From contig JAAWKM010000011.1 in assembly GCA_022797375.1 (NCBI GenBank), forward strand, positions 1-44,965: a DNA stretch of 44,965 nt, given 5' to 3'. The position numbers were made by a program, and so were the translations under genes. The notes under the pieces were generated by a model. That model was not told where the DNA came from. It did no database searches and saw only the letters and a list, made by a program, of their open reading frames with translations. The stretch comes from Lachnospiraceae bacterium (lineage in GTDB: Bacteria; Bacillota; Clostridia; Lachnospirales; Lachnospiraceae). Positions 37,012-44,965 of the stretch are shown here, piece after piece (the stretch's first letter is position 1; each line of letters begins with the position of its first letter).

Positions 37012-37303
37012 CATGTCCGTTTCATAAAATTTCCAGTTATCCTGTACTGGCAGACGGACGCAGGGTTTCTGTGCCCAGGCTGGTATTATTCCATGACAGG
37101 TGCACTTTAACCCCGCCGGCATTTAAGTTCCTGTGTGACAAAAGAAACATAAGTTTCTTTTGTCACACAGGGGCTTTATGTGCCGCTGCGTGGGTTACCG
37201 TAGCGCAAGCGTGCCCTGTCATGGAATAAACCCGCCCTGGCACTGGGAACCCTGCGTCCGTCTGCCACCACAGAATAACTGGAAATTTTATAAAACGAAC
37301 GTG
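37012..37303. repeat. C-family long nested palindrome, copy 1
   Basis: A 292-bp element that folds on itself almost completely. The outer ends (CATGTCCGTTTCATAAAA / TTTTATAAAACGAACGTG) match the B-family termini. Next come TTTCCAGTTAT arms, then CAGACGGACGCAGGG / CCCTGCGTCCGTCTG, then ATTCCATGACAGG / CCTGTCATGGAAT. At the centre is a perfect 19-bp stem with an ATAA loop (37130-37171). It is non-coding and fills most of the 542-base gap between nadE and the operon at 37393; the first 160 bases of that gap hold nothing I can name. Confidence 0.85.
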
Positions 37304-37322: not shown

Positions 37323-37352
37323 TTTACACAGCAATGTAAAAAGTGTTATAAT
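37323..37352 (+). promoter_or_regulatory. Promoter of the DUF5717-DUF5716 operon
   Basis: TTTACA (37323-37328) and a perfect TATAAT (37347-37352) are separated by 18 bases. They start 20 bases after the C-family palindrome and about 40 bases before the ATG at 37393, which has a GGAGG site. Confidence 0.6.
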
Positions 37353-37392
37353 AATGAACAAATAGTATCTATAGCAAGGTCCGGAGGAATTT

Positions 37393-40300
37393 ATGAAAGA
37401 AAAAATAGATGAAGCAGCAAACGGAATATTTAAAAGCGGGCCAGCAAATCTTGTGCTTACCCCGCCAAGCCTGAAACTTGAAACGGGTTCTGGTGAGCCA
37501 TGTACTGGAAGCTTTGTTGTTAGCAACAGCAAGAACAGGCCAATGAAAGGGCTTGTATGTACAAGCTGCCATTATATCAGGCTGGAACAGACTTCCTTCC
37601 AAGGTGTAGCTGCCACAATCCAGTTTTATTTTGATGGTAAAAATTTTATGCCAGGTGAAGTTGCAAGAGGTTCAGTCCTTGTTATTACAGACTGCGGGAC
37701 TGCACGTGTCCAGTTCACTGTCAATGTAAATGTACCATCTTGCACAGTTTCTTCTGGCAAAATAAAAGATTTATTCCATTTTACAAATCTGGCCAGGGAA
37801 AACAGCACAGAGGCAGTACAGCTTTTCAGGAACAAGCATTTTGAAGAAGTATTTTTATATAGGGATAATTCCAATATCGCCCTGTACAGAGGGCTTATTG
37901 CCAGTACAAGCAAAGGGCTTGCTATGGAAGAATTTTTAATTGCAATACATAAAAAGCTGCCTATAATGCTTACAGTAAACCAGACTTCATTTGAATATAA
38001 AAACTGTCATGAAAAATTTACAGATGAAATTATAATAACAAAAGATAACTGGGGATTTGGTGAATTCCATATAAATTCTGATGCTGATTTTATAATACCA
38101 GAACATAAGATTATATGGGCTGATAATTTTATAGGCAGGACTTTTAAGCTGTCATTTATGGCTGATCCATCTAAAATGTCACCAGGAAACAATTATGCCA
38201 GAATTAAGATAACATCCGTACGGCAGACTATTGAAATAGAAATAACAGCTATAAAACCAGGGATAAAACATGAAACCGTTATAAACCAGCTTACTTTACA
38301 AAAGAAATATTATAATCTTACTAAACTATACCTTGACTTTTCTATGGACAGAATAGATACAAAAGAATATATTTCTTCTGTAGAAAAAATAGTTGCAGGG
38401 ATTCCAAGCATGGACCTGGATATTGAAGCAGAATTATATAAAATCCATCTTGGAATTATAGGCAGACAGGAAGATGTAATAGAAAGCGGGTTTGAACGCC
38501 TTACACCAATTATAAAAGAAATATACAGAAAAGATACCAGGCTTTACTGTGCATACTTATACTTAAAAGGGCTATGGGCAAGCGGTTCGCATGAAAGGGA
38601 CGAATGTATTAAAAAAATAAGAAGATGTTACGAAGAAAAGGAACACAGCTGGCAGATTATGTGGTTTCTATTCTATCTGGATGGTGAATATGAACCAGAC
38701 AGGGTGAAACTTGAAACTATATATGGACATCTTGAAGCAGGCTGCCACAGTCCTGTACTTTATTTTGAAGTTTGTAATATACTTAATGATTCACCTGGGA
38801 AGCTTACTGAATTAAATATGGAAGTTGTTTCATGCCTGCACTGGGGATGTGTTAATAATTACCTGGAAAAAGAACTGGTTCTGCGTTATACATATCTTGC
38901 CAGCAGGTTAAAAAGCTATTCAAAACTTGTATTATCTGATTTATGTACTTTATATGAAAAATATAGTGATGATGAGATATTAGTAGCAATATGCAGTACC
39001 CTTATGAAAGGGCAGATGACATCTGCTGAAGCTTTTAAATGGTATGCAATGGGCATAGATAAAAACTTAAAGCTTACTGATTTGTATGAGTATTATATGT
39101 ATTCATTAGATGAGTCACAGGAAATACACCTTAAGCAGTCTGTACTTTTGTATTTTCTATATGACAACCACCTTACTGCATCTAAAAAAGCAATGCTTTA
39201 CGCATATATTATTAAAAATAAAGAGCAGATACCTGATACATACAATGCATATATGAATAATATAGAGGAATTTTGTTTTGCCCAGTTACACCAGGGGCGC
39301 ATTAGCAAAAACCTGGCAATAATATATGAAGAATGTATAAATGAAGATAAAATTACAGCTAATGTGGCAGCGGAACTTCCTAAAGTGATGTTCAGCCATG
39401 AAATTTTATGTAATAACCCTGATATAACTGGTGTTTATGTAAGACACCGTGAACTTAAAGAAGAAGAATTTGTACCACTTGTCCATGGAAGAGCTGTTGT
39501 ACATATATTTACAGAACAATCACATGTATTTCTTGCAGATGGCCTGGACAACCGTTATATAATGTCTATAGATTATACTGCCAATAAGCTCTTAAACCTT
39601 GACCATCTTGCATCAAGATGTTTTGAGAACAATAAAACAGACACAAGGCTCCTTCTGTATCTTTATGACAGGGCAGACCATCTGCACCAGACAGGTACAT
39701 CTGCAATGGAAGTCCACAGGGCAGTTATTAATATACAGGGATTAAGTGAGTACCAGCACCGTAAAGTATTTGTTGCCCTTGTAAAATACTACTTTGATAA
39801 TTTCGAGGGACAGCTTCTTGATGAGGCACTCACATCAATGGACTGGGATAATGTAAGCAGCTCCGAAAGGACACAGTTTATAGAGTATTGCGCTGTAAGA
39901 CATTGTTACAGCAAGGCAATGGAAGGAATATTAAAATATGGGTATGATAAAATCCCTGGAAAGCGGCTTTTACAGATTTCTTCACATACATTTGAAAGCT
40001 GTGCGGATAACGAAGATGTCTATCTTGTAAGGCTGGCATGGCATATTTTTAATACTGGCAAGTTTGATGAAAATGTGTTAAAATACCTCTGCCATTACTT
40101 TATAGGTGGTATACACGAAGAAACAAGAGTATGGCAGGCAGCACGTGGTTTCGGCATAGAGTGCAGGGATTTTGAAGAACGTATAATTGCACAGATGGTA
40201 TTTACAGAAGAAATATCACCAGAGGCATATAATATATTTTACAGTTACTATGAAAATGGTGATAATAAAAGGCTGGTTAAGGCGTTCCTTAAAATTATAG

Positions 40301-40965
40301 CACACAAATATCTTATTAAAAACTGGCTTGTACCTAATGACATGTTTAAATATTTTTATGATGAAGTACGTACACAGGAAAACATGATTTGCCTTATTGC
40401 TACTTTAAAATACCTGAGCCAGAAAAGGAAACTTACAGAAGAAGAAACAAGTTTCGCAGATTATAACGTCAATATGCTTTATGAAAAAAATATTGTGTTT
40501 TCTTTCTTTAAGGATTTTATTGGAAAATTTACACTTCCTATACATATAATGGATGCACAATATGTTGAATATATAGCAGAACCTGGCTGTGAGGTTAAAA
40601 TACATTATCTTATTTCACCAGGACAGAAACCACAGGTTTCAAAAGATGGTGAAGAATTTATTACTGAGACAATGAGAGATGTATTTGAGGGTATAAGGGT
40701 TAAAGAATTTGTACTTTTCCAGGATGAACTCCTGCAATATTACATATCAGAAACGGATGGAAAAGGAGAAAGGATTACGCGTAGTGTAAGTGTACATTTT
40801 GATGAATCTATGGATGATGCAAGGGAAGGAAGCCGTTACCATACACTTAATACAATGATGATTGCTAAAGAAATGCAGGACGATGCAACCCTTATTGGTC
40901 TTATGGAAGAATATACCAGGGAACGCGAAAATGTAAAACGGCTGTTTAAACCCATATTAGATTAA
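37393..40965 (+). CDS. Large Ig-like/helical-repeat scaffold, DUF5717-type
   Basis: The 1190-residue protein resembles DUF5717, a family I know only as uncharacterised in Lachnospiraceae. It seems to have two N-terminal Ig-like beta domains (about 15-120 and 195-300; the first holds LVLTPPSLKLETGSGEPCTGSFVVSN). A very long helical-repeat region follows (about 305-1050), then a small C-terminal beta domain (about 1060-1140). No signal peptide, membrane helix or catalytic motif is visible, so it is probably a cytoplasmic scaffold. It leads the operon: the actin/Hsp70-fold gene follows after 19 bases. Pairing with that ATPase suggests a chaperone-like or assembly role, but this is inference. It is one of the largest proteins in the window. 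Confidence 0.78.
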   Translation: MKEKIDEAANGIFKSGPANLVLTPPSLKLETGSGEPCTGSFVVSNSKNRPMKGLVCTSCHYIRLEQTSFQGVAATIQFYFDGKNFMPGEVARGSVLVITDCGTARVQFTVNVNVPSCTVSSGKIKDLFHFTNLARENSTEAVQLFRNKHFEEVFLYRDNSNIALYRGLIASTSKGLAMEEFLIAIHKKLPIMLTVNQTSFEYKNCHEKFTDEIIITKDNWGFGEFHINSDADFIIPEHKIIWADNFIGRTFKLSFMADPSKMSPGNNYARIKITSVRQTIEIEITAIKPGIKHETVINQLTLQKKYYNLTKLYLDFSMDRIDTKEYISSVEKIVAGIPSMDLDIEAELYKIHLGIIGRQEDVIESGFERLTPIIKEIYRKDTRLYCAYLYLKGLWASGSHERDECIKKIRRCYEEKEHSWQIMWFLFYLDGEYEPDRVKLETIYGHLEAGCHSPVLYFEVCNILNDSPGKLTELNMEVVSCLHWGCVNNYLEKELVLRYTYLASRLKSYSKLVLSDLCTLYEKYSDDEILVAICSTLMKGQMTSAEAFKWYAMGIDKNLKLTDLYEYYMYSLDESQEIHLKQSVLLYFLYDNHLTASKKAMLYAYIIKNKEQIPDTYNAYMNNIEEFCFAQLHQGRISKNLAIIYEECINEDKITANVAAELPKVMFSHEILCNNPDITGVYVRHRELKEEEFVPLVHGRAVVHIFTEQSHVFLADGLDNRYIMSIDYTANKLLNLDHLASRCFENNKTDTRLLLYLYDRADHLHQTGTSAMEVHRAVINIQGLSEYQHRKVFVALVKYYFDNFEGQLLDEALTSMDWDNVSSSERTQFIEYCAVRHCYSKAMEGILKYGYDKIPGKRLLQISSHTFESCADNEDVYLVRLAWHIFNTGKFDENVLKYLCHYFIGGIHEETRVWQAARGFGIECRDFEERIIAQMVFTEEISPEAYNIFYSYYENGDNKRLVKAFLKIIAHKYLIKNWLVPNDMFKYFYDEVRTQENMICLIATLKYLSQKRKLTEEETSFADYNVNMLYEKNIVFSFFKDFIGKFTLPIHIMDAQYVEYIAEPGCEVKIHYLISPGQKPQVSKDGEEFITETMRDVFEGIRVKEFVLFQDELLQYYISETDGKGERITRSVSVHFDESMDDAREGSRYHTLNTMMIAKEMQDDATLIGLMEEYTRERENVKRLFKPILD

Positions 40966-40984
40966 AAAACCTGGGGGAATATAT

Positions 40985-42247
40985 ATGAGTGAAGAGCGGC
41001 AGCTTTTAGTTGGGATTGATTTAGGCAGGACAATTTCACAAATTTCATGCTTTGACAGCAAACTATATGAACCAGTTCCAATTGGAAGAATGCATGGAAA
41101 AGAACGTGAATATGAAATACCCGTTGCATTTGCAATAAATAGAAAGAATAATGAATGGCTCTGGGGAACAGATGCACTTGAGGCGGGGGAAGACTTTATT
41201 CATCTTGACAATATACTTGAACGCATTGTATCAACAGATAAATTTGAGATTACAGGATATACTTTCCATAGCAAAGAAGTTCTAAAAAGATTCTTACTAA
41301 AAGAATTAAGCCTGCTGAAAGAATACTATCCAAATGATACAATTAAAAAGCTTGTTATAAGCACAGAAGACCGGGACAGCAAGGCAATACCAATAATTAA
41401 AGATGCATGTGGTGAACTTGGAATAATGGAAGACAGGCTTGTTGTACAAAGCCATAAGCAGAGTTATATGTATTATGCAGTAAGCCAGCCACAGGAACTC
41501 TGGATTAATAATGTAGGCATGTTTGAATATAATACAGGTGGGCTGTCTTATTCACAGATATCAATAGACAGGAAAAATGTACCATATATTGTAGGTGTTG
41601 ATAAAAAGGACTTGTCAGATGTTATGCCTTATTCAATTTTGCTTGAAAATGATGATATACGCATTAAATATTCTTTTACAAATGTTGCCAATACAGCACT
41701 TCATAAACAGATGGTTACCACAATTTATGTAACAGGTACTGGTTTTGAAGGAAAATGGGCTTCCGATGCACTTAAAGAACTTTGTACTGGCAGAAGGGTA
41801 TTCAGGGGCCAGAACCTTTTTACAAAGGGTGCATGTTATGCCGCCAGGGAATTTGCAGGCCAGGGGAAACTTGAAGGCTTTATTTTTCTTGATGAAGATA
41901 TGATTACAAGCGATATATTAATCAGGACATACCATAATGCAGAATTTGGCGAAGTAGCACTTGCCACAGCAGGTTCAAGATGGAATGAGGTAGATTCAAG
42001 TATTGATGTTATACCAGATGATGAAGAAGAAATCCAGATTATTACAAGAAATGCACTGTTACATGAAGCCAAAGCACATATATTATCACTAAACGGATTT
42101 ATAGGCAGGAAAAACAAAATGACACGTTTTACTGTAAGAATACGTTTTGCCAGTAAAAATACATGTATTGTAACACTTAAGGACAACGGGTTTGGCGAAT
42201 TTTGCCCCTCAACTAACAGGATATGGGAACGTTATATTGATATATAG
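40985..42247 (+). CDS. Actin/Hsp70-fold ATPase, DUF5716-type
   Basis: The 420-residue protein shows the actin/Hsp70 nucleotide-binding fold. Phosphate-1 is LVGIDLGRTISQIS (8-21). A phosphate-2-like turn lies at about 180-192 (FEYNTGGLSYSQIS). The adenosine motif is IYVTGTGFEGKW (247-258), followed by GQNLFTKGACYAA as in Hsp70. The usual Hsp70 substrate-binding domain is absent; instead a short C-terminal beta region (about 335-420) is present. I relate it to DUF5716. It probably binds and hydrolyses ATP and works with the large upstream scaffold. The stop codon is TAG followed at once by TAA, within a D-like ATAGTAAC sequence. Confidence 0.78.
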   Translation: MSEERQLLVGIDLGRTISQISCFDSKLYEPVPIGRMHGKEREYEIPVAFAINRKNNEWLWGTDALEAGEDFIHLDNILERIVSTDKFEITGYTFHSKEVLKRFLLKELSLLKEYYPNDTIKKLVISTEDRDSKAIPIIKDACGELGIMEDRLVVQSHKQSYMYYAVSQPQELWINNVGMFEYNTGGLSYSQISIDRKNVPYIVGVDKKDLSDVMPYSILLENDDIRIKYSFTNVANTALHKQMVTTIYVTGTGFEGKWASDALKELCTGRRVFRGQNLFTKGACYAAREFAGQGKLEGFIFLDEDMITSDILIRTYHNAEFGEVALATAGSRWNEVDSSIDVIPDDEEEIQIITRNALLHEAKAHILSLNGFIGRKNKMTRFTVRIRFASKNTCIVTLKDNGFGEFCPSTNRIWERYIDI

Positions 42248-42312
42248 TAACATTCCAGTTTTCCATAAATGTATAACTCAACCCACACTAAAAACACTGT
42301 TATGTTACTATT
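42242..42312. repeat. Degenerate D-like repeat in operon gap
   Basis: AGTAACAT (42246-42253) and ATGTTACT (about 42302-42309) form inverted ends around AT-rich sequence. The first end overlaps the stop codon of the ATPase gene. It lies in the 130-base gap of the operon, and I see no clear promoter there. Confidence 0.4.
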
Positions 42313-42377
42313 AAACGTAAGACTGGATAATAACAATATATAGGAGAAAAAGAAAGAATTAATTACGGAGGATAGAT

Positions 42378-43217
42378 ATGGGGAAATTAATACAGTGTAC
42401 TGGCAGGCTTGCCAAAAAACCATATTATTTCAGGGTGACAGATACTAATGTATATTCAATAGAAGAAGTCTGTTATTTTATCCACCAGAATATTTATATG
42501 TTACAAAGTGATTTTTTTACTTATGGCTTCGCAATATGGCTAAGAGATGAACTTGGAATGGAAGATACTGCACTTAAAATGGAAAATATGCTCCACTATA
42601 ATAATAACCTGAAAGATATTGTTGTTACCCTATGCTGCAGCTGTGATTATTATGACGAAAAGGAAATAAATGAGCTTATAAGAATAATGGATGAAACCCA
42701 GAACCTTCCATTGCGTAAAAGACAGAAAATAAAAGCAGATAATTATCTAAGATGCAATTTGTTTGAAAAAGCACTTGAAGAATATGGACATATTTTAAAA
42801 AGTGACAATATGCTGGCAGCAGATATAAAAGAATATGGAGCCATTTACCATAATATAGGGGTAGCATATGCAAACCTTGGCGGGTACAGCAAAGCTTGTA
42901 GTTATTTTTCCCAGGCATATGAAAAGGGAAATAACAAAGAGTCTTTAAGGGAATATATATATTGCCTTATATTGCTGGAAGATAATAACCGGTATGAACT
43001 TGTATGCAGGCAGTACAATATTACAGAAGAAGAACGTGATAGTATTAAAAAGGATTTTAAAGAAGCAGACAAGGCAAGTGCTTCCTCAAAAGAAACAAGT
43101 AAAATATCACGTTTAAGGGAAATACTTAAATCTGGTTACCTGGAAGAATATTATAATAAAACAGATGGGTATATTAAACGTTGGAAAGATGAATACCGCG
43201 AAGAAATCAGTGTTTGA
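42378..43217 (+). CDS. TPR-like protein of the DUF5717/DUF5716 operon
   Basis: The 279-residue soluble protein starts with a conserved-looking domain of about 110 residues (YYFRVTDTNVYSIEEVCYFIHQN, then LCCSCDYYDEKEINELI with three nearby cysteines). Two or three TPR-like units follow (about 115-200: RCNLFEKALEEYGHIL; then YHNIGVAYANLGGYSKACSYFSQAY). The C-terminus is charged and helical. A GGAGGATAG site precedes the ATG. Its last codons overlap the ribosome-site region of the next gene, so translation is likely coupled. It may be an adaptor for the ATPase and scaffold, but this rests on context only. Confidence 0.75.
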   Translation: MGKLIQCTGRLAKKPYYFRVTDTNVYSIEEVCYFIHQNIYMLQSDFFTYGFAIWLRDELGMEDTALKMENMLHYNNNLKDIVVTLCCSCDYYDEKEINELIRIMDETQNLPLRKRQKIKADNYLRCNLFEKALEEYGHILKSDNMLAADIKEYGAIYHNIGVAYANLGGYSKACSYFSQAYEKGNNKESLREYIYCLILLEDNNRYELVCRQYNITEEERDSIKKDFKEADKASASSKETSKISRLREILKSGYLEEYYNKTDGYIKRWKDEYREEISV

Positions 43218-43228
43218 AAGGATATATT

Positions 43229-44470
43229 ATGGCTTTTTGGAACAGAAAAAAGAAAACAAAAAATGCAGATAATACAATTAATAAAAATATTATAGAAAAT
43301 ATACCTGGCAACAACAAGCAGGAAAATATAACAGAGAACAACACAGAAAATGTTGTAGAAGAAATTGCTCTAGCCCAGCAGGAAAAATTCTCATCTGTTG
43401 ACAGAAAAGACCAGAAAAGACTTGTACGTGAATGTTGTGAATCTGCTATGGAAAATGACAGGCAGATAAGTGAAGCAAAGAAAGAATACGAAAAAATCAC
43501 ATCACATCTTTCTGATATACAAAAAATTGACAGAATCAGCGGAACTGAAAGAAAAGAACTTATTGATATATGTAAAAACATAGTAAACCTTGTTAATGAA
43601 CGTAACCGTTACAAGAATAGGACTCTTACTATTACAGAAGCACAAATGAGAAGATTTGAACCATATGAGGAAGAACTTGTTGATGAAATTAAGAAAATGT
43701 ATAGTGCTGAATCATACCAGAAGGCTATAGAAAGTGATATATCAAATTTGAAAAAGGAAAAACAGCTTTTATACAATGAACAAAGAGAAATACTTGGAAA
43801 GCAGAATTCCCTCAAATCTATGGCTAAAGTGCTTTCAGCCCTTATAATTTCATTATTTGTCTTATTTATTGTAATTTACTATGCACTTGAAACAGATATG
43901 ACACTTCCATATCTTGGAACAGTCCTGCTCGCAGCAGTTTCGGCGACCGTAATATTTCTCGAAGCTAATAAAAACAAACGCGACATGCTGCTTAATGACA
44001 GAAAAGTTAATAAAGCAATTGGACTTATGAACCGGGTTAAAATAAAATACGTTAATAATGTCAATATGCTCAGCTATAACTGTGAAAAGTTCAGTGTTAA
44101 AAATGCCAAGGACTTTGAAGAGAAATGGAATGAATATTGCAAAATGAAAGAATATGAAAGGCGTTTCAGGGAAAACACAGAGAAACTGAACTTTAATAAT
44201 GAATGCCTTATAAGCCTTTTACGTGAAAATGGCATTGCTGACAGTGACATATGGGCAAGCCAGGCACTTGCAATAATTGACGAAAGGGAAATGGTAGAAA
44301 TACGCCATGTATTTAACCAGGGCAGGCAGAAACTGCGTGAAAGAATAGAATATAATGAGAACATCAAAGCTGGTACAGTGAAACAAATAGATGAGTTAAT
44401 TACAAAATACCCAGATATGCAGAATGAACTTCTTGATATAGTTAAAGAGTATAGTGTAGTGAATTCATAG
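43229..44470 (+). CDS. Membrane-anchored coiled-coil protein of the same operon
   Basis: The 413-residue protein begins with a charged segment (MAFWNRKKKTKN) and a long coiled coil (about 55-190). A membrane hairpin of two helices comes next (about 200-222 and 228-246: VLSALIISLFVLFIVIYYAL, then LPYLGTVLLAAVSATVIFLEA). A second coiled-coil region fills about 255-410. Both ends are probably cytoplasmic, giving two arms held at the membrane. The ATG at 43229 has AAAGG ahead; the TTG at 43214 is rejected. It closes the operon, 11 bases after the TPR-like gene. The function is unknown; its shape suggests a membrane platform for the complex. Its stop is again TAG-TAA. Confidence 0.75.
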   Translation: MAFWNRKKKTKNADNTINKNIIENIPGNNKQENITENNTENVVEEIALAQQEKFSSVDRKDQKRLVRECCESAMENDRQISEAKKEYEKITSHLSDIQKIDRISGTERKELIDICKNIVNLVNERNRYKNRTLTITEAQMRRFEPYEEELVDEIKKMYSAESYQKAIESDISNLKKEKQLLYNEQREILGKQNSLKSMAKVLSALIISLFVLFIVIYYALETDMTLPYLGTVLLAAVSATVIFLEANKNKRDMLLNDRKVNKAIGLMNRVKIKYVNNVNMLSYNCEKFSVKNAKDFEEKWNEYCKMKEYERRFRENTEKLNFNNECLISLLRENGIADSDIWASQALAIIDEREMVEIRHVFNQGRQKLRERIEYNENIKAGTVKQIDELITKYPDMQNELLDIVKEYSVVNS

Positions 44471-44504: not shown

Positions 44505-44660
44505 ACATTTTCATAAAATTTCCAGTTATCCTGTGCTGGCAAATGGACGCAGGGTTCCCAGTGCCAGGGCGGGGTTAAAGTGCACCTGTCATGGAATAAA
44601 CCCCGCCCTGGCATAGAAACTCTGCTGCTCGTTGGCAAAATGAATAACATAACTGGAAAC
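44505..44660. repeat. C-family palindrome, copy 2
   Basis: A shorter, rearranged relative of the element at 37012-37303. It starts with TTCATAAAATTTCCAGTTATCC and ends in ATAACTGGAAAC. A perfect 15-bp stem, TGCCAGGGCGGGGTT (44562-44576) with AACCCCGCCCTGGCA (44599-44613), sits around the shared CACCTGTCATGGAAT core. It lies just after the operon. Confidence 0.75.
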
Positions 44661-44807: not shown

Positions 44808-44965
44808 GCAGGTTTCATGTGTCCAGGCTAAACATTATTCCATGACAGGTGCACTTTGGCATCGCCGGCGTTTAAATCCCGTACTTTGGGATTTTATGCG
44901 CCGCTGCGTATGCCAACGTAGTGCGAACGTGCCCTGGAATGGAATAATTTAGCTGGACACAGAAA
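44808..44965. repeat. C-family palindrome, copy 3, possibly cut by the window edge
   Basis: TTTCATGTGTCCAGGCT (44813-44829) pairs with AGCTGGACACAGAAA at the right edge. The inner sequence carries the same ATTCCATGACAGGTGCACTTT core and a small AAATCCC/GGGATTT loop stem. It may continue beyond 44965. The 44661-44807 stretch before it is AT-rich and shows no gene. Confidence 0.7.

Follow-up and report, generated by a model that had tools for sequence, protein, structure and literature searches.

The DUF5717-DUF5716 operon of Lachnospiraceae, a candidate reduced Hsp70 system

According to the sections on Ssz1 in PMC7083937, this Hsp70 of the ribosome-associated complex (RAC), where it is joined by Zuotin, binds ATP and does not hydrolyse it, has no lid, retains a complete substrate-binding beta domain (SBD-beta) and needs no classical nucleotide exchange factor. 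HSP70 proteins also occur in some neighbourhoods of the GAP1-N2 GTPase systems, together with GrpE and FNIII-TPR or FNIII-DnaJ proteins, and in a subset of these systems a second HSP70 is said to have no peptide-binding domain, consisting of the nucleotide-binding domain (NBD) only; the class has been inferred to act near the membrane (passages on this class in Kaur et al. 2020, PMC7159879). The words Lachnospiraceae and clostridia do not occur in the main text of that paper. Here, these systems and the DnaK-GrpE system are compared with a four-gene operon (P1 to P4) of a Lachnospiraceae bacterium (GCA_022797375.1), located in a stretch of 44,965 nt that was analysed as a whole (contig JAAWKM010000011.1, positions 1 to 44,965 of the forward strand; the window). 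P1 and P2 are members of DUF5717 (PF18984, PF18983) and DUF5716_C (PF18980), respectively, for which the Pfam descriptions give no function. In the literature searched, with subscription papers and preprints outside its scope, no description of DUF5717 or of the operon was found, in agreement with the first-pass annotation of the window, which had proposed an undescribed system; the name DUF5716 occurs in one paper, which deals with cancer to judge from its title and opening abstract.

With fair confidence, we read the operon as a reduced, vertically inherited Hsp70 system of the order Lachnospirales, in which P2 would be an Ssz1-like clamp within a platform formed by P1, P2 and P3. The anatomy of the operon is well supported by sequence comparison and structure models, and its function is what we infer from them.

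P2 matches DUF5716_C far above the cut-off (E-value 5e-100, 335 bits with a cut-off of 34.7, residues 122-419), so that the family name assigned in the first pass holds. Its AlphaFold2 model is confident (pLDDT 91.6, pTM 0.86) and, together with the fold search, gives a two-domain Hsp70 fold, composed of an actin-like NBD and an SBD-beta. DnaK structures lead the 50 best fold matches listed from the Protein Data Bank (PDB), with both domains aligned (E 6.6e-20); the same 50 include entries of RAC, the complex containing Ssz1. TM-scores normalized by query length are 0.43-0.56, and the root-mean-square deviation is 8-21 Å, the high deviation from DnaK being expected if the domains are hinged differently. 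The P2 profile also finds DnaK in PDB by sequence (E 6.6e-4). Thus, the Hsp70/actin-type fold proposed for this protein is confirmed by the PDB fold search, while the statement that it lacks a substrate domain is contradicted by the model and the fold search, both showing a lidless SBD-beta. The SBD-alpha lid is missing, as P2 rows of the alignment mostly stop at about residue 509 of the 624 residues of the bacterium's own DnaK.

The origin of this protein is seen from the other families of the order, where the operon is larger. The N-terminal DUF5717 domain (DUF5717_N) was found in 75 of 146 genomes of the order (in 74 of them over the cut-off), that is, in 15 Lachnospiraceae genomes and in 60 of 131 genomes of other families; from the latter 60 we chose 20 loci, representing seven families. 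Several of these 20 stretches end before the genes of the TPR and membrane proteins, and two (L101, L103) are cut inside the operon. The scaffold gene, the counterpart of P1, is split into open reading frames (ORFs) of about 400 and 900 aa in 12 loci, the shorter one corresponding to the N-terminal part of P1; in four loci it is joined (1326-1329 aa), and in four it is 931-1006 aa long. The scaffold is followed by a fixed gene series, denoted here B, D, F, E, C, H and O: Hsp70s B (20/20 loci), E (18/20) and C (18/20, with a vWA fusion in locus L098), a long protein D with a C-terminal GrpE domain (19/20), a degenerate Hsp70 F (17/20; in L115 an unlabelled 412-aa ORF takes its place), the TPR protein H (12/20) and the membrane protein O (2/20). 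Most absences coincide with the end of a contig or of the retrieved sequence. Pfam assignments within the larger operon come from the ten proteins of one locus, L098, whose F matches HSP70 as well as DUF5716_C. The D profile retrieves GrpE from PDB (E 8.5e-8).

Hence, the larger operon resembles the DnaK-GrpE system in that B and E keep all Hsp70 residues tested, as does C in 14 of 15 rows, and in that D ends in a GrpE domain; it differs in its several Hsp70 paralogues, its scaffold of about 1200 aa, its vWA fusion and its membrane protein, and no DnaJ was seen in it. The engine parts, namely the intact Hsp70s and the GrpE-domain protein, were not found in the Lachnospiraceae operon. The flanking genes of the short and larger operons were compared using 61 Lachnospiraceae loci (the window and 60 loci chosen by a P1 match on long contigs, hence not a random sample). 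A divergent class I/II aminotransferase gene lies upstream in 23/61 Lachnospiraceae and 16/20 other-family loci (the family was scanned in three loci). Downstream, a gene that we take from its sequence to be valyl-tRNA synthetase-like is present in 18 Lachnospiraceae loci and in one from another family. Given these common flanking genes, the short and larger operons often share one chromosomal site.

Residues of the Hsp70 active site were counted in P2 of 59 of the 61 Lachnospiraceae loci (L054 and L085, where an antisense ORF overlaps, were set aside, and both have P2 by six-frame search) and in the Hsp70-type proteins of the larger operon, excluding rows of at most 440 aa, which are cut or split ORFs (19/20 B, 17/17 F, 18/18 E and 15/19 C used). 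Positions are given in E. coli DnaK numbering. In the window, P2 has Leu and His at the equivalents of Lys70 and Glu171. Neither of these two residues is retained in any of the 59 P2, and Thr199 is retained in two; likewise, all three are absent from the 17 F. Among the intact paralogues, the triad is complete in all 18 E, all 19 B and 14 of the 15 C; the remaining C row, presumably the split ORF of locus L096, is gapped there. P2 is therefore predicted to have no active ATPase, contrary to the terms "ATPase" and "ATP-driven" in the first-pass annotation. In addition, its companions in other families, the intact Hsp70s and the GrpE-domain protein, are missing from the Lachnospiraceae operon.

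Since F also is devoid of the catalytic residues, their loss predates the reduction of the operon, and what is new in Lachnospiraceae P2 is, by the alignment, the loss of the NBD subdomain IIB. In the stretch of 78 residues that represents this lobe, 0-1 residues are present in all 59 P2, while each of the 17 F has 70-78 and E has 77-78, and the helices and strands of the P2 model agree with the absence of IIB. GrpE grips Hsp70 partly through this subdomain; because of that, the loss of IIB together with the loss of the GrpE-domain protein makes sense.

The direction of change was assessed using trees. In the tree of 92 Hsp70-type rows (with 20 of the 59 P2 included), P2 proteins form one clade within a P2+F group, F of locus L096 being their sister, and B, E and C form separate clades. 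The second tree (67 of 79 P2 from named loci, described below, with L064, the window and three F) again places F of L096 beside all Lachnospiraceae P2 used. As P2 is nested in F, the absence of the intact Hsp70s and of the long GrpE-domain protein from Lachnospiraceae appears to be due to loss, and the loss of B, D, E and C is the simplest reading of how the short operon arose. Recent horizontal gain by Lachnospiraceae was considered and rejected on the basis of the shared chromosomal site and the nesting of P2 in F.

In the P2/F tree, L096 (G499:C25) is the locus closest to Lachnospiraceae. It retains all five of B, D, F, E and C, with a D of reduced length (279 aa) and with the C and TPR genes each split into two ORFs; these features may reflect assembly errors or decay.

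Outside the operon, the genome of the window has three PF00012 matches, by sequence two DnaK-like proteins and one MreB-like, none of them inside the B, E or C clades. The two DnaK-type proteins, L116 (G000:C203, 624 aa) and L117 (G000:C237, 588 aa from ATG), are paired in the tree, and a second DnaK might work together with the inactive P2. The absence of intact Hsp70s in the family refers to the operon loci and to this genome, as a search for B, E and C elsewhere is confounded by ordinary DnaK. The long D was not found by profile search in any of 60 Lachnospiraceae genomes: the 12 matches obtained there (ORFs of 196-257 aa) mostly cover the GrpE domain only and represent ordinary GrpE. Among 291 genomes of the class, 61 have matches to the same profile (ORFs of 170-335 aa), with one weak N-terminal match in a 648-aa ORF.

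The short operon is almost universal in its family. DUF5717_N was found in 196 of 200 Lachnospiraceae genomes, nearly all from different genera, and DUF5716_C in 195; for good genomes (completeness of at least 90%, contamination of at most 5%) the numbers are 163/165 and 162/165, respectively. The only two good genomes without DUF5717, G029 and G091, also have no DUF5716 and could reveal what replaces the system. In a draw from the phylum, DUF5717_N occurs in four of 299 genomes (that of the window and three others of the family), and DUF5716_C in the same four of 298. A search of 291 genomes of the class with the profile of the other-family scaffold gave no convincing match beyond the order: three weak short matches (E 1e-6 to 2e-4; positions 421-616, 492-571 and 455-543 of 898) were judged to be chance.

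P1, P2 and P3 are consecutive on one strand in all 61 Lachnospiraceae loci, with P1 and P2 less than 400 nt apart in 60 (the gap is 915 nt in L087), whereas P4 directly follows P3 in 34 loci and does not in 27. In a genome-wide search, P4 was detected in 46 of 100 genomes of the family, in two of them by weak matches only, and was not found in 54. Hence, of the conserved four-gene synteny expected in the first pass, the part comprising P1, P2 and P3 is upheld and the constant presence of P4 is not; the core of the operon, as judged from gene order, is P1-P2-P3, P4 being a frequent fourth gene. A further set of 80 named loci, biased due to its selection by likeness of P2 to that of the window, contains complete or partial ORFs of P1 in 80 loci, P2 in 79, P3 in 79 and P4 in 68; in one of them (L153) the P2 match extends to the contig end. 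The family labels of these loci are Lachnospiraceae (59), none (19), Eubacteriaceae (1) and Anaerolineaceae (1), and the closest P2 relatives of the window in the P2 tree are labelled Lachnoclostridium. The contig labelled Anaerolineaceae (Chloroflexota; L137) has its P2 inside the Herbinix group of the tree and is probably mis-binned or mislabelled.

P1 matches the two DUF5717 families over its full length (PF18984 and PF18983, 951 and 313 bits with the curated cut-off of 25; E 5e-286 for DUF5717_N and 3e-93 for DUF5717), which confirms the family name. Its model (pLDDT 87.7, pTM 0.64) combines beta domains with a helical solenoid, as expected of the giant Ig-like/helical-repeat protein foreseen in the first pass, the term Ig-like being derived from secondary structure only. 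No sequence relative at E 1 or better was found with the P1 profile in PDB.

P3 matches TPR_2 below the model cut-off (E 7e-4), and among P1-P4 only P4 has stretches resembling transmembrane (TM) segments, as judged by hydropathy; the first-pass descriptions of a TPR-like third and a membrane fourth protein are thus retained at this level. Lachnospiraceae P3 is about 110 residues shorter than three complete counterparts from other families (386-393 aa). In the TPR protein of Oliverpabstia intestinalis (L172 11260-12384), an acidic low-complexity insertion interrupts the central part, and the length is 375 aa, compared to about 279 aa. P4 has no match above the cut-off in Pfam and weak ones only in PDB (keratin, E 0.057; VMA21, E 0.079). 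When started from TTG at 43214 instead of ATG, it would be 418 aa rather than 413 aa long.

P2 and P3 are fused into a single ORF of some 710 aa in a clade comprising L151 (Catenibacillus scindens), L152 and L064 (the protein from L057 is identical to that from L151). A further case, L145, is surrounded by unfused relatives in a different clade. The tree as drawn requires either two fusions or a single one followed by several later splits; the single change counted by the tree tool for the fused state ignores unfused rows, which are assigned to no group. The fusions are a hint of physical contact between P2 and P3.

These data may be combined as follows. Of the larger set, Lachnospiraceae keep the scaffold, the degenerate Hsp70 and a TPR protein of reduced length; under half of the sampled genera have the membrane protein as well. 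P2, presumably not able to run the Hsp70 ATP cycle, would act as a fixed clamp, as Ssz1 does in RAC, its lidless beta domain gripping a partner peptide, most likely from P3 or from the solenoid of P1. P1, P2 and P3 would then constitute a permanent platform for holding or docking, which P4, where present, would anchor to the membrane, and energy-driven steps would be left to other proteins, perhaps to the cell's own DnaK and GrpE. The resemblance to Ssz1 (an Hsp70 with no lid and with SBD-beta kept, and hydrolysis lost in P2 as predicted from catalytic residues) is one of working, not of membership: P2 has also lost IIB, no J-domain protein is seen in the operon, and contact of P2 with ribosomes is not known. 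The near-universal presence in the family is more suggestive of a housekeeping role, be it in the envelope, in division or in protein handling, than of defence.

More tentatively, and with less than even confidence, families of the order may possess a second dedicated Hsp70 machine, equipped with a GrpE-domain protein of its own, a vWA-Hsp70, an Ig/solenoid scaffold and a membrane protein. In Lachnospiraceae it would have been converted into an engine-less complex around a dead Hsp70 deprived of its IIB lobe, and this complex would have become a near-universal core structure of the cell; it would be comparable to RAC of eukaryotes, with the differences of a 1200-residue scaffold and of being held at the membrane in some genera. 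Lachnospiraceae are abundant in the human gut, and 98-99% of their good genomes possess the gene set; beyond the order, the samples searched yielded no convincing copy. An intact Hsp70-GrpE machine that lost its catalytic parts and kept a dead paralogue and a scaffold would be an unusual natural experiment on the purpose of non-catalytic Hsp70s. To what is recorded for DUF5717 and DUF5716, the present analysis adds the origin from Hsp70, the absence of the IIB lobe and the existence of a larger operon.

Several observations weigh against the reading of P2 as a clamp in a reduced, vertically inherited system. P2 keeps the phosphate-1 Asp (Asp8) in 52/59 loci and the first adenosine Gly in 58/59, and Asp194 is still present in 31/59. 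The evidence for ATPase loss consists of residues, that for the housekeeping role of presence, and that for the P2-P3 contact of gene fusions. The tree of 92 rows was built by a quick method with midpoint rooting and gave long-branch warnings. Divergence is fast, the median identity to the window being 25-28%. Moreover, no Zuotin-like J-domain family was seen in P1, P3, P4 or the ten L098 proteins, the scan covering operon proteins only and, for one TPR protein, the best 25 of 32 families being listed.

The retained Asp8 and first adenosine Gly, together with the confident actin/Hsp70-type model and the precedent of Ssz1, which binds ATP without hydrolysis (PMC7083937, Ssz1 sections), could indicate non-hydrolytic binding of ATP or another nucleotide by P2, with the complex responding, as a switch or sensor, to cell energy or a nucleotide second messenger. 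We consider this rather unlikely, since other positions have decayed: in addition to Thr199, P2 keeps Asp194 in 31/59 loci, Thr12 in 8/59, Thr11 in 1/59 and the second adenosine Gly in none. An active P2 ATPase, making the four proteins an ATP-driven membrane assembly machine as proposed in the first pass, is very improbable. The Hsp70 fold with its phosphate-1 Asp, the presence of a membrane protein in the same operon and the larger version in other families, which probably is ATP-driven, speak for it; this machine was rejected for Lachnospiraceae on the lost catalytic residues, and the absence of the IIB lobe, of any remaining intact Hsp70 or GrpE-domain gene in the operon, and of P4 from many loci and genomes point the same way.

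The larger operon does resemble the subset of GAP1-N2 systems with HSP70, GrpE, a second HSP70 and FNIII-TPR/DnaJ proteins (Kaur et al. 2020), HSP70 and GrpE genes being present in L098 and the window operon having the degenerate Hsp70 only and no GrpE-domain protein; moreover, three L098 Hsp70s weakly match the PADLOC candidate PDC-M61B over 142-194 residues inside the Hsp70 region. Still, a conflict or defence system of this kind is improbable and was rejected: the PDC-M61B matches are taken as Hsp70 likeness, P1-P4 match no PADLOC model at E 0.01, and the operon is near-universal and often at the same site, unlike patchy defence genes. No GTPase or tubulin family was seen among 19 proteins of five loci (ten of L098 and nine flanking proteins of four other loci), and neither these nor P1-P4 gave a GAP1-named match, with the limit that the family library may not hold all GAP1 models. 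Because no GTPase was seen and DUF5717 is near-universal in one family rather than patchy, we do not file the operon under the GAP1-N2 class, a distant common origin being possible. That the genes are merely inherited side by side, their products not forming one complex, would fit the frequent lack of P4; it is quite improbable given the adjacency of P1, P2 and P3 in all loci at a median identity of about 26% and the P2-P3 fusions in two clades.

Coordinates of the operon and its features in the window
Feature	Coordinates	Strand	Basis
Promoter-like site TTTACA-18-TATAAT	37323..37352	+	11/12 consensus matches, TG before -10; consensus match only
P1, DUF5717 scaffold protein, 1190 aa	37393..40965	+	ORF, Pfam, model
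P1, two N-terminal beta-rich domains (residues 20-124 and 193-288) with helical link	37450..38256	+	Model
P1, alpha-solenoid of about 40 helices (blocks 293-666 and 737-1054, beta insert 668-732)	38269..40554	+	Model
P1, C-terminal beta domain (residues 1056-1135)	40558..40797	+	Model
P2, DUF5716 degenerate Hsp70, 420 aa	40985..42247	+	Pfam, tree, alignment, model, fold search
P2, actin/Hsp70-type nucleotide-binding fold without subdomain IIB	40985..41884	+	Alignment, model
P2, substrate-binding beta domain, eight strands, no lid	41909..42244	+	Alignment, model, fold search
P3, TPR-like adaptor, 279 aa	42378..43217	+	ORF, Pfam
P4, membrane protein, two adjacent TM-like segments between long charged arms, 413 aa	43229..44470	+	ORF, hydropathy
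P4, TM-like stretches (residues 194-226 and 224-248)	43808..43972	+	Hydropathy only

The four ORFs are found in the ORF list where the first-pass annotation placed them, on one strand and closely spaced (gaps of 19, 130 and 11 nt between P1-P2, P2-P3 and P3-P4, respectively). No family above the cut-off was found for P1-P4 in NCBIfam. Position 37323, taken in the first pass as the start of the operon, belongs to the -35 hexamer of the top-scoring of 53 promoter-like sites listed for the window, and none of the sites listed lies on the + strand in the 130-nt gap between P2 and P3. As the scan yields 35 such sites (standard deviation 6.5) in shuffled sequences, the single promoter proposed for the operon keeps a good candidate site and is plausible, not more. 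Beyond 44470, the listing contains no terminator-like site.

Upstream of the operon, the opposite strand encodes an NAD synthase and an M56 peptidase (Pfam, NCBIfam), which do not belong to the gene set. An imperfect palindromic repeat of about 260 bp occupies positions 37030-37290, upstream of the operon, and contains a strong hairpin (37127-37174). A search of the genome with this repeat yields 95 match rows (40 of 276 candidates scored, palindromes being counted in both orientations). A 22-base core of the repeat also occurs downstream of the operon at 44577-44598 (- strand) and 44836-44857 (+ strand), giving three occurrences in the window with none expected. The repeat looks like a MITE-type or extragenic palindromic element.

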